Below are positions 47,415 through 50,825 of a DNA stretch of 64,000 bases, piece after piece. Under the pieces are notes generated by a model that was not told the origin of the DNA, did not search any database, and saw only the letters and a program-made list of their open reading frames with translations. The stretch covers positions 1 to 64,000 of the forward strand of contig NZ_JAAAMK010000002.1 of assembly GCF_024105665.1 (NCBI RefSeq), given 5' to 3'. Position 1 is the stretch's first letter. Each line of letters begins with the position of its first letter. The stretch is from Aliihoeflea aestuarii. Its GTDB lineage: Bacteria; Pseudomonadota; Alphaproteobacteria; Rhizobiales; Rhizobiaceae. A program made the translations under genes and the position numbers.

Positions 47415-48239
47415 TCAGGCAAGGCCGGGGCGGTCGAGACCGCCGGGTGACAGCGAGAAGATTTCGCATCCGTCCTTGGTCACACCCACCGTGTGCTCAT
47501 ATTGCGCCGAAAGCGAACGGTCTCGCGTCACCGCAGTCCAGCCGTCCGAAAGCACCTTCACATGCGGGCGTCCCAAATTGATCATCGGCTCAATGGTGAA
47601 GATCATGCCCTCACGCATTTCGACGCCTTCGTTCGGGCTGCCATAGTGCAGGATGTTCGGCGCGTCGTGGAACAGGCGCCCGACGCCGTGGCCGCAGAAA
47701 TCCCGAACCACCGAACAGCGCTCGGCTTCGGCGAAAGACTGAATCGCCGCCCCGATCGCCCCGGTGCGTGCACCCGGCCGCACGGCGGCAATGCCCCGCG
47801 TCAGGCATTCATGCGTGACTTCGAGAAGACGCTCCGCCGCGCGCTTGATCTGGCCGACAGGATACATCCGGCTCGAATCGCCATGCCAGCCGTCGAGGAT
47901 GTAGGTAACGTCGATATTGACGATGTCACCCTCGCGCAGGGGCTTGGCGTCGGGAATGCCGTGGCAGACGACGTGATTGATCGATGTGCACGAGGACTTC
48001 GTGTAGCCGCGATAGTTGAGCGTGGCGGGCAGGGCGCCATGGTCCATGCCAAACTCGAAGACGAAACGGTCGATCGATTCCGTCGTCGTGCCCGGCTTCA
48101 CGAGGCCCGCCAGCGCGTCGAGGCAGCGTGCCGTCAGTTGGCATGCCTTGCGCATGCCTTCGAACGCGTCTTCGTTATAGAGCCGGATCTGGCCGGTATT
48201 GCGCGAAGGGGCCGCCTCCGCATCTAGATAGGTGACCAT
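47415..48239 (-). CDS. map: Methionine aminopeptidase, type I
   Basis: A 274-residue Map that removes the initiator Met from nascent proteins. The pita-bread fold residues are visible: His in [12 protein letters not shown], Asp in [17 protein letters not shown], His in [17 protein letters not shown], and Glu in [10 protein letters not shown] and in [11 protein letters not shown]. It starts [20 protein letters not shown] at 48239, as in rhizobial forms; the open frame further upstream overlaps a recombinase remnant. It lies 10 bases before radC. Confidence 0.96.
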
Positions 48240-48325
48240 TATATCCTGCCGGTCGCAACGGAACTGATTGAAAACAGATTTGGCACCAAGCGCGCTCGCA
48301 TTCAACCCCGGAAGCGACCGCATGT

Positions 48326-48508
48326 AAGAGGGAAGGCATCGCGAAGGCGCGGGCTGACGGTAAATATAAGGGTCAAAAGGCAACGGCTATGGCGAAGGCA
48401 GATGATGTTGTGCGCCTTAAAGCCGAGGGGCAGGCTGCCGAGCAGATCGCGACGATCTTGGATATAAGCCGCGCGAGTGTATTTCGAGCATTAAAAGCTC
48501 AGGCTTAG
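48326..48508 (+). pseudogene. Serine-recombinase C-terminal remnant
   Basis: In one frame, 48326-48508 encodes REGIAKARADGKYKGQKATA followed by a helix-turn-helix (RLKAEGQAAEQIATILDISR, ASVFRALKAQA) and a stop. This is the C-terminal DNA-binding end of a resolvase/invertase (Pin/Hin type). The catalytic N-terminal domain with its Ser and Arg residues is missing: the sequence before it belongs to the map upstream region. The first in-frame ATG, at 48389, would give only 39 residues. It is read toward the Ntn-hydrolase gene and marks an old integration. Confidence 0.8.
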
Positions 48509-48537
48509 CTTCCGAAGGTATGCTTGAAGGATCGCGC

Positions 48538-49383
48538 TCAACCCATACCAAATGTGCCGATCACTAGCGGGCCGACCCGTCCGAGCTCGACATCGATATC
48601 AATACCATTTAGCGTTCGTCGCGCAGTTGGTTCGCCATATCGAATTGGCTCGGCCGTCCAATACACTCTGAATTCAGACGTGAAATCAGCTAGGCCGATT
48701 GAGACAGAGCCGCCCACCGCTCCTCTTCCCTCACCCGCCATCTCAGCCACTATTCTCTTCGGCAGTCTCGCGGCGGTGTTATCGATGCGAAGTTGCGCAT
48801 ATCGAGACATAAAACGCTTTATTTCATCCTCGCCGCCTATAATCACGCCAGGAAATGATGCTGATGTCGAAACGTCAGTAATTCGTATCGTTACCTCACT
48901 TCCATCGAACTCATCCGAAATGTGACGTATCTGCATTTCGTTCGAGGCGGGACACTTTCCAAAAATGACGAAATCACACAAGCCCCGATCTTTAAGGTTA
49001 TTCGTGACCTCCCTTATGTTTTCAACATAGCGCTTCAGTATACGCCCCAAAAGAGACGCCAGATCGTCCAAGCTCGGAGGGGTCGAGGCCGATCCCGTGA
49101 GTTGACCACACGCAAGAGACATCGTTGCGATGGCCTGAGAAGCTGCTGAAACGTTCCCGGCGAACGCAAGTCCCAGTGTTCCCTTGTAAAACAGCGGACC
49201 AAACGTCGCCAGTTCAGTTAGATTGCGCGGCGCCATGCGGCAACTGATCGGGAGCGGGTAAACTTTCGCTCCCGCGTCGGTCGTTATTGCAACACCGCTA
49301 CCAGAACGGTCTGGTCTGGAGATGCGAGTATCAGCGGCCACCCAGACGCCTTCTGTGTCGTGCCAGACTGCTGCGATCGTCAT
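48538..49383 (-). CDS. Proteasome/HslV-like Ntn-hydrolase of unknown function
   Basis: A 281-residue protein with no family I can name. From ATG 49383 it starts MTIAAVWHDTEGVWVAADTR. After removal of Met, Thr would be residue 1 and Asp residue 17 (AADTRIS), as in proteasome beta subunits and HslV; a Lys before VYPL is at 39, against 33 in those families, with a six-residue insertion. GTLGLAFAGNVSAASQAIA resembles the Gly-rich strand after the active site. The rest, including a C-terminal beta-rich part (SIGLADFTSEFRVYWTAEPI), is unlike HslV. No ATPase partner is adjacent. Its base composition is visibly less G+C-rich than its neighbours. A start further upstream (49461) would bury the Thr. 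Confidence 0.65.
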   Translation of the reverse strand: MTIAAVWHDTEGVWVAADTRISRPDRSGSGVAITTDAGAKVYPLPISCRMAPRNLTELATFGPLFYKGTLGLAFAGNVSAASQAIATMSLACGQLTGSASTPPSLDDLASLLGRILKRYVENIREVTNNLKDRGLCDFVIFGKCPASNEMQIRHISDEFDGSEVTIRITDVSTSASFPGVIIGGEDEIKRFMSRYAQLRIDNTAARLPKRIVAEMAGEGRGAVGGSVSIGLADFTSEFRVYWTAEPIRYGEPTARRTLNGIDIDVELGRVGPLVIGTFGMG

Positions 49384-49516
49384 AGTAGCGTCCTCGTTGC
49401 TAAACTGCTTGTACACGCTTTCGCGTGCGAGGACGTGGGGGAAAAGTGGGTGGAAGAGCAAACCGAGAATGCTCGATTACTCGATCATTCAACACGTTAA
49501 AGAGGGTAAAGAATGT

Positions 49517-49591
49517 TGGTACGCCCAAGGGGAATCGAACCCCTGTCTGCGCCGTGAAAGGGCGCTGTCCTAACCGCTAGACGATGGGCGC
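49517..49591 (-). tRNA. tRNA-Glu (anticodon UUC)
   Basis: On the reverse strand a 75-nt cloverleaf: acceptor GCGCCCA (49591-49585) pairs with TGGGCGT with a G-T first pair, discriminator A, encoded CCA (49519-49517). The anticodon loop CTTTCAC gives UUC; the T-arm is AGGGGTTCGATTCCCCT. Its 3' end faces the Ntn-hydrolase insert, the orientation expected for tRNA-targeted integration. Confidence 0.95.
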
Positions 49592-49718
49592 GTTCCAACG
49601 ACGCGGTTTATAGTAAGCTTCCGCGAAGCACACAAGCCGCCCAAGGCCGTTTTTCCGATTTTTCTGATGCATCGAGACTTACGCAACGTCGGCGGAAAAC
49701 AGCATTCCAGGAGCAATC

Positions 49719-50825
49719 CTAGCCTCGCCTGCGGCAACGCCAGTTCCAGTCGCGCTCGGGGCCTGTATCCACATGAATGGATTCGGTATGGCAGTAGGTG
49801 CCGACTCCGCCGCGCCGGGGCATCGCGCGCACGAACTCGGCCACTTTCATCTTGTGGACACCTGGAACGTGAATGTCGGCCGCCGCGCAGGCCATGTGCT
49901 GAGAGGCACGCGCGCCGCGAACGCGCCGATTGTGCTCGGGGCTGCGATATCCGGAGGTGACGATCACCTTCTGGCCGAAGCGATTCTCGATCGCTCGCAA
50001 AATGGCGACGAGTTCGGGGCGGAAGCATCCGACCTCGACCTTGTCGTGCTGTTTCAACAGACCGTTCGGCGCCAGACGGGCGAGGCCCGGCGCATAGGCG
50101 ACCTGATAAAGCCCGCCGCCTTCGAGCATGTCGATGTCGCTGTCGTCGTCGATGCCGTTGCGCCGGCTGATCTCGAACAGGCCGGCATTGTCTCGAACGC
50201 CGGGGAGAGCATCATTGCCGAAGGACGCGGTGTCGATCATCGAGGGGCGGCTGGTCGCCGCCGCTGCGAGCGCGGGTTGGCTGTCTTCCAGATCGACGAC
50301 CGGGCGCGGGGCCGTTTCATTTTGTTGGGCAGCAGCAGCAAGAGGCGCGGAAGCGCCCGTCGATTGTTGCGGCGAAAAGAATGCCGACAGGAAGCCTCGC
50401 TTGGCCGGCTCCGGCTCTGTTTGCTGCGCGGCGGTTTCCACAGTCTCCGGCACGGCAGGCGAAGGCTCTCGCGCCTGCAACTGCGTCTGATCGCTCTCTG
50501 CTGGCTCAGCCGGCACCGTCTCGGCAACTGCTTCTGGCTCTACGGGAGCCGCCGCCGGCGCATCTGCCGTGTCGGCGTCAGCCTCGATGGCGGCACTCTG
50601 CGGCGGGGAAACCGCGTCGCTTTCTTCGGAAGCATTGTCCTGCACCGCTTCGGCGACTTCCACAGAAGCTTCGCCAGGAACGCCGGTCGCGCCATATTGC
50701 GGGGAGAACCCGAACAACGTTCCGTCGGTATCCGACGTCGCCGAGCAGGAAGCAAGCAAGGTGGCGGTCAGCGCTGCAAGCATGAGACGACCGAAGGCAA
50801 TCGGGCGCGTGGCGTTTGCAGACAA
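49719..50825 (-). CDS. DUF882/peptidase M15-like lipoprotein
   Basis: A 368-residue protein with a lipoprotein signal (MLAALTATLLASC, lipidated Cys at about 27), a long low-complexity linker rich in Ala, Glu, Pro and Asp (about residues 35-220), and a C-terminal DUF882/M15-type domain. That domain has VTSGYRSPEHNRRV, SQHMACAAADIHVPG and TESIHVDTGP, whose His, Asp and His are the presumed zinc ligands of murein peptidases. It probably acts on peptidoglycan. TTG at 50825 is preferred because GAGGGG lies 9 bases upstream and gives a normal signal peptide; ATG at 50870 is the alternative. Confidence 0.8.
   Translation of the reverse strand: MSANATRPIAFGRLMLAALTATLLASCSATSDTDGTLFGFSPQYGATGVPGEASVEVAEAVQDNASEESDAVSPPQSAAIEADADTADAPAAAPVEPEAVAETVPAEPAESDQTQLQAREPSPAVPETVETAAQQTEPEPAKRGFLSAFFSPQQSTGASAPLAAAAQQNETAPRPVVDLEDSQPALAAAATSRPSMIDTASFGNDALPGVRDNAGLFEISRRNGIDDDSDIDMLEGGGLYQVAYAPGLARLAPNGLLKQHDKVEVGCFRPELVAILRAIENRFGQKVIVTSGYRSPEHNRRVRGARASQHMACAAADIHVPGVHKMKVAEFVRAMPRRGGVGTYCHTESIHVDTGPERDWNWRCRRRG

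Follow-up and report, generated by a model that had tools for sequence, protein, structure and literature searches.

A predicted proteasome-like threonine hydrolase gene carried as apparent mobile cargo in Aliihoeflea aestuarii, with a possible role in host defence

The hydrolase gene and its locus

The window, i.e. the entire stretch of 64,000 nucleotides from Aliihoeflea aestuarii that was analysed, carries on its minus strand (48538..49383) a gene of 281 amino acids which, judged from its reading frame from ATG to stop, its relatives and structure models, is predicted to encode a proteasome-like N-terminal-nucleophile (Ntn) hydrolase of the threonine type. A search of its own genome returned this gene as a single copy. 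A GAGGA stretch, Shine-Dalgarno-like by eye, is found 7 nt upstream of the ATG (49391..49395, minus strand), and a tRNA-Glu (TTC) gene on the same strand (49517..49591) lies directly upstream of the hydrolase gene; it serves as a landmark, and the content at this place differs between relatives. At the other end, a plus-strand fragment (48329..48508) represents, according to its translation, the C-terminal remnant of a serine recombinase and resembles by eye a complete recombinase of Ruegeria. Beyond this fragment, minus-strand frames read as map (methionine aminopeptidase) and then radC. The window's own neighbourhood is one of housekeeping genes. An earlier, sequence-only reading of this DNA had given the same minus-strand frame, ATG at 49383 to 48538 with 281 residues, and had noted the absence of an ATPase neighbour; by eye, no ATPase partner is indeed present among the neighbours in the window.

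The methionine aminopeptidase-like neighbour (47418-48383) is the type of enzyme needed for exposing an N-terminal threonine. This adjacency is likely due to chance, since map is also found at the locus in four relatives that lack the Ntn gene there.

A longer, TTG-started ORF of 307 amino acids also exists. An upstream start, which the sequence-only reading had named as evidence against itself, did not emerge, for the own starts of 21 relatives align at residue 1 of the window protein, with ATG-Thr in 19 and ATC-Thr in two, and by eye a Shine-Dalgarno-like stretch precedes most of them. Because of this common alignment, the ATG at 49383 is likely the true start. The two copies with an apparent ATC start are those on a Vibrio nigripulchritudo plasmid (L005:5001) and in a Halomonas integron (L016:2712); they show the arrangement AAGGAGTTCATC-ATC-ACN, in which residue 2 is again Thr, and the ATC is preceded by AAGGAG. 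In the Vibrio annotation the start is placed 14 codons past the ATC, a choice that would lose the Thr.

A rare and divergent family

Relatives were collected from the same genus, plasmids, genome contigs, viral contigs and whole-genome samples. Including the window protein, 22 distinct members were obtained from alpha-, beta- and gammaproteobacteria, two cyanobacterial genomes (one of them with two copies) and viral contigs, duplicates and near-duplicates having been dropped before counting (L002, at the place of L012; L007; L009, equal to L109; L023; L024; L025-L028). Where measured, pairwise identity with the window protein amounts to 18-40%. One candidate, L003 (26% over query residues 83-168, E 9.9e-4), was rejected; its aligned part misses the Thr, Asp and Lys and, by eye, lies opposite a GntR-type ORF.

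The family is rare, divergent and sporadic. Members were found in 2 of 297 genomes of the taxonomic family (own genome included; three were counted, one of which was judged false) and, the own or seed genome again included, in 2/385 genomes of the class, 2/398 of the genus Pseudomonas, 2/243 of the cyanobacterial order and 2/369 of the class of the Halomonas genome. In E. coli, a near search returned a single allele in 6 of 5426 genomes. Ratios of dN/dS were 0.03-0.23 in six of seven pairs, two of these six being close to saturation with dS above 2.5, and the seventh pair was saturated; the family genes are under purifying selection, by which their function is maintained.

Two of the 22 members look damaged. 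L108 (5001-5876), located beside an AbiE pair, contains an in-frame TAA stop, and L109 (2225-2845; 206 amino acids) diverges after approximately residue 155. On a sister Vibrio plasmid (L007:5001-5570) the match is split and the annotated gene shortened.

Conserved residues and their spacing

An alignment of the 22 members revealed Thr2, Trp7, Trp14, Asp18, Lys40, Gly76, Gly142 and Cys144 in 22/22 and Gly71, Gly183 and Gly225 in 21/22; Gly271 is also present in 22/22, though the C-terminal alignment is unsure. Four of these residues correspond to the catalytic set of proteasome-type enzymes. Codon 2 (49378..49380, minus strand, as are the following) specifies Thr, the predicted N-terminal nucleophile after Met removal, an assignment also consistent with the model alignment described below. 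Codon 18 (49330..49332), within AADTRIS, encodes the putative equivalent of Asp17. The Lys33-equivalent is predicted at codon 40 (49264..49266), just before strand S3 (model strand 41-50), and the equivalent of the oxyanion-hole residue Gly47 at codon 76 (49156..49158), which belongs to an AGN/AGS motif at the end of model strand 64-76.

The sequence-only reading had pointed to a Thr at codon 2, an Asp 17th from it in AADTRIS, a Lys 39th from it before VYPL and a later GTLGLAFAGN; all of these are present, the last as residues 68-77 and Lys40 standing before VYPL. Its expectation that Thr, Asp and Lys are conserved held in 22/22, but the exact spacings of 17 and 39 were not kept. Counted from Thr, the Asp ranges from position 17 to 22, being at exactly 17 only in the window protein and L109, so that the exact value is a matter of chance, and the Lys ranges from 35 to 47. 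Consequently, what had been taken for a six-residue insertion before the Lys is a loop of variable length. What all members share is an insertion behind the Lys: the Lys-to-Gly distance is 29-36 residues in all 22 members and, as the alignment and the model of L021 indicate, codons 41-75 (49159..49263, minus strand) form an extended S3-S4 hairpin specific to the family.

The invariant Cys144 is part of an FGxC motif (FGKC/FGYC) present in 22/22, alongside the equally invariant Trp7 and Trp14. To our knowledge, this Cys is not part of the usual residue set of proteasomes.

Sequence-profile searches

No match to the window protein was obtained in sequence searches of Pfam, PADLOC and the PDB, and a single NCBIfam match (E 0.026) was considered due to chance. 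Proteasome profile PF00227 matched neither the window protein nor any of 13 members scanned at E≤1. Pfam searches with sets of 5 and 13 members, as well as profiles of these sets run against the PDB, returned chance matches only, and the best PHROGs matches (E 0.03-0.5) were without function. Comparison with hhalign to HslV and Anbu alignments built here gave probabilities of 2.6% and 15%, neither being significant. The relationship which the sequence-only reading had hoped to see in a profile search was thus not recovered; yet this comparison is unable to separate relatives, because the HslV-Anbu control, at 0.3%, scored below both family comparisons.

Predicted structure and comparison with known proteins

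AlphaFold2 models were calculated for two members, with 13 sequences as input, and reached pLDDT values of 77.6 (window protein) and 87.5 (L021). Common to both are strands S1-S2, the long S3-S4 hairpin (37-49/52-67 in L021), two helices followed by a short third one in L021, four strands, two further helices and at least two further strands. The S3-S4 insertion is a β-hairpin in both models, with a helix of at most four residues. The C-terminus of the window model past approximately residue 243 is of low confidence, and this includes the place where the H5 coiled-coil helix of Anbu would be sought.

Foldseek returned 375 PDB chains at E≤0.001 for the window model, with Anbu and proteasome subunits among them and Anbu as the best (5lox; E 2.8e-7, prob 1.00). 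At the same threshold it returned six viral models, of which the top one is named proteasome β subunit. With VIA-align, the best match of the window model was Anbu again (5nyw; Z 18.6, RMSD 2.9, 195 aligned residues, 16% identity), and that of the L021 model was the proteasome chain 8ypk_C (Z 19.5, RMSD 3.2, 186 aligned residues). Z was at least 8 in 997 (window) and 1000 (L021) of the best 1000 chains. In most listed Anbu and catalytic β chains, model residue 2 superposes on residue 1. Among the matches listed none was named HslV or connectase, which is uninformative about either.

The wrong fold, against which the sequence-only reading had set this comparison, did not appear, as both models show the Ntn sandwich. 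Residue conservation and predicted fold together go, as far as alignment and models can tell, far beyond chance. We therefore regard the four-layer α-β-β-α (proteasome) fold with its catalytic set as almost certainly predicted correctly, and the proposal of a separate, propeptide-less family of N-terminal-threonine hydrolases finds support in the invariant catalytic residues and the two models.

Anbu shares with the window protein the fold, the Met-Thr start and a D-T-R motif at the Asp, the latter two being read from Anbu of this and other genomes. Unlike Anbu, the window family has no PF00227 match and possesses the extended S3-S4 hairpin, and the profile similarity mentioned above is not significant. 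Proteasome β subunits and HslV likewise resemble it in fold (Z up to 19.5) and in residues of the Thr1/Asp17/Lys33/Gly47 type; the window gene differs by having no propeptide and no hslU or other ATPase as neighbour, by a longer S3-S4 hairpin and by being mobile cargo (see below). In the residue numbering of Fuchs et al. (2021; PMC8665760), Lys33 and Gly47 are 14 residues apart, as compared to 29-36 in the window family.

A small particle of the HslV/Anbu/BPH type that degrades proteins during routine quality control or under stress could account for the shared fold and catalytic set and for Anbu and catalytic β subunits being the best matches. Such a housekeeping role would be at odds with the sporadic distribution (two genomes in each of the samples of 297, 385, 398, 243 and 369), whereas PF00227 matches are found in 117 of 120 genomes. 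The genome of A. aestuarii moreover already has two other genes passing PF00227, one HslV-like and one Anbu-like by their starts, the Anbu-like gene being separate from the window gene, and no unfoldase is located beside the latter. We consider this degradative role quite unlikely.

Fuchs et al. (PMC8665760) describe 22 uncharacterised proteasome-like subfamilies. Like the window family, these are divergent prokaryotic proteasome-like proteins with no propeptide and no AAA partner identified there. By taxon range the subfamilies DPH, RPC and PMI-5 are nearest, although Table 1 of that paper gives them as Proteobacteria only, whereas the window family is also cyanobacterial. An insertion at the S3/S4 site, as found here, is named in the accessible text for connectase, PMI-5 and PMI-6 only; in connectase and PMI-6 it consists of two helices and not of a hairpin, the comparison being by description. 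On the same descriptive basis, the window family is possibly identical to one of these subfamilies and so already named.

The shared insertion site, occupied in 22/22 members as in connectase and PMI-5/PMI-6 (PMC8665760), invites the idea of a connectase-like monomer which would recognise a single short sequence of a single partner protein and act on it by processing or ligation, the S3-S4 insertion serving as specificity element. The lack of any widely recurring neighbour gene (see below) would fit this idea as well. However, the predicted insertion is a β-hairpin with a helix of four residues at most, as opposed to the two helices of connectase, and the S3/S4 site by itself is uninformative on ligation. 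A connectase-like activity is hence unlikely in our estimate.

Mobility of the gene

In all four other genomes of the same genus that were searched (4/4), the interval between map and tRNA-Glu holds a different ORF of 416-432 codons from stop to stop, by eye an FAD-dependent oxidoreductase. The interval (about 48309-49720 in the window) is of similar length in these genomes. In the window, this position next to tRNA-Glu is occupied by the Ntn gene instead of the resident one. The GC content of the Ntn gene is 0.535, compared to 0.616 for the window. No exact tRNA-Glu repeat of 10-18 nt was found between 48251 and 49516. One member of the genus has a copy of approximately 24% identity elsewhere in its genome, and in the tree it falls into another well-supported clade; on account of the different location and the separate clade, the two copies were probably gained independently.

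Near the Ruegeria copy lies a complete serine recombinase (L004:2845-3384), the C-terminus of which, by eye, resembles the fragment in the window. In Halomonas, the gene sits downstream of one for an integron integrase (TIGR02249, 369.7 bits, cut-off 265), between GTTAAAC and an attC-like hairpin, and a hairpin resembling the latter accompanies the Vibrio copy. Since Rfam scans of L016 and L005 returned no attC or other relevant family but one chance match, the attC assignment is a by-eye reading. Each of the six E. coli records has the gene between phage tail or tail-fibre genes and bacterial or plasmid genes or intS (intS in 2/6), which places it at a prophage edge. At L015, L020 and L021 a phage-type integrase is nearby by eye; NCBIfam matched that of L015 weakly and that of L020 not at all. 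Other copies were found on viral contigs and on plasmids, and some, by eye, are chromosomal among ordinary genes.

In five of the six E. coli records a 200-amino acid protein, WP_021577015 (L017:8917-9519; same place in L075-L079), is encoded upstream of the Ntn gene. It has no Pfam or NCBIfam match. The sixth record shows a protein of the same size but different accession at this place.

By these locations, the gene behaves as mobile cargo of prophage edges, plasmids and an integron cassette. Copies at prophage edges and on viral contigs might mean that the gene serves the mobile element itself, through processing of element proteins or counter-defence, and not the protection of the host. Yet it is also found in an integron cassette and, by eye, on chromosomes amid ordinary genes, and three queries against 50,697 phage records returned no match. 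We consider a function for the element improbable.

Gene neighbourhood and defence genes

Neighbouring genes of 18 loci were compared by all-against-all BLAST (L105-L108 were added later). A widely conserved partner gene was sought and rejected, as only pairwise recurrences appeared: reverse transcriptases (L005/L018), serine recombinases (L004/L009), transposase and tyrosine recombinase pairs (L016/L018), genes of phage type shared within the group L017 and L019-L022, and two further pairs that are short or ordinary (L012-L014, L014-L018). An AAA ATPase is annotated approximately 1.4 kb away from the Ruegeria copy, on the opposite strand, and a helicase is found 0.6 kb upstream of the Vibrio copy, so that an energy-dependent partner is possible at some loci.

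PADLOC was used for the detection of defence genes; of the 22 loci, seven (L006, L010, L016, L019-L022) were unscanned and three (L004, L013, L017) partly scanned. With this coverage, clear defence neighbours are present at 4 of 22 loci (L005, L018, L105, L108), with L013 as a weak case. No CD-NTase with effector adjoins the window gene, and among the loci scanned this pair occurs only at Vibrio L005 and Pseudomonas L105. On the V. nigripulchritudo plasmid, 60 bp separate the end of the Ntn gene from a CD-NTase (PADLOC cyclase, E 3e-132); a Cap15-type effector comes next, and SLATT and UG17 reverse transcriptase genes after it. In one Pseudomonas genome, the Ntn gene is directly preceded, at a distance of 97 bp, by a 2TM effector and a CD-NTase (E 1e-171), and a second CD-NTase is located further up. 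The gammaproteobacterial copy L108 has AbiEi and AbiEii downstream (E 1e-83, 2e-138). In A. pittii, a reverse transcriptase and an AbiEi-like gene are located 3.7-5.6 kb from the Ntn gene, on the far side of a transposase. The B. paludis copy has as flanking genes YaaC and one that matches LmuA weakly (E 5e-8).

At the Pseudomonas CBASS locus, a 343-amino acid protein is encoded downstream of the Ntn gene (L105:5898-6929); it has no PADLOC match.

As a control, 10 of 20 random windows from the same contigs were used together with 10 focal chromosomal windows, the chromosomal loci L010, L013 and L016 being excluded from the focal set (ORFs ≥120 amino acids, E≤1e-15). CBASS or AbiE was found in 2/10 focal as opposed to 0/10 random windows. 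Enrichment of defence genes is nevertheless not statistically supported, because the random windows gave matches to other PADLOC families (PDC-S11, PD-Lambda-2, mads), and the result is regarded as suggestive.

Discussion

Among the functions listed by the sequence-only reading, the genomic context favours defence, and the distribution of the family favours a single-gene defence enzyme. We propose, giving it about an even chance, that the gene encodes a self-contained N-terminal-threonine hydrolase and represents a single-gene cargo trait which defends the host against phages or other mobile elements. Methionine aminopeptidase as a general rule removes the initial Met when Thr follows. Translation from an fMet-Thr start would hence allow the cellular enzyme to remove Met1 and to free Thr1, no propeptide being required. 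Thr1 would act as the nucleophile, with Lys and Asp in support and Gly in the oxyanion hole, and would cleave peptide or amide bonds in a limited range of substrates. As no ATPase recurs beside the family, these substrates may well be small or specific. The long S3-S4 hairpin near the active site may be a gate on access or a specificity element, by analogy to the S3/S4 insertion of connectase (PMC8665760). Protection would probably be conferred by cutting a protein of the invader, or a host protein once infection has been sensed.

A more specific version, in which prophages, plasmids and integrons disseminate a proteasome-fold threonine protease as a one-gene antiphage effector and some hosts (Vibrio and Pseudomonas, with their CD-NTase/effector pairs alongside) have recruited it as a CBASS accessory, is put forward tentatively and appears rather doubtful to us. 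Carriage by an integron would not be unusual for a defence gene, as at least 16 of 179 V. cholerae cassettes and 9 of 57 tested V. parahaemolyticus cassettes are given as antiphage in the review PMC12409362.

Proteasome-like proteins are usually regarded as housekeeping degradation machines that work with an ATPase. No paper on a proteasome-type enzyme in bacterial antiviral immunity was found in the open-licence literature, and a passage search of the main text of DefensePredictor (PMC13092281) gave no mention of proteasome or Ntn. A proteasome-like protein that appears as mobile cargo without a visible ATPase partner and, at some loci, together with CBASS, AbiE or defence reverse transcriptases would make a role of this fold in antiviral immunity testable, and the invariant catalytic set would render T2A a clean control. 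The same case bears on what many of the uncharacterised proteasome-like subfamilies might do, for which the accessible text of PMC8665760 reports no informative gene context.
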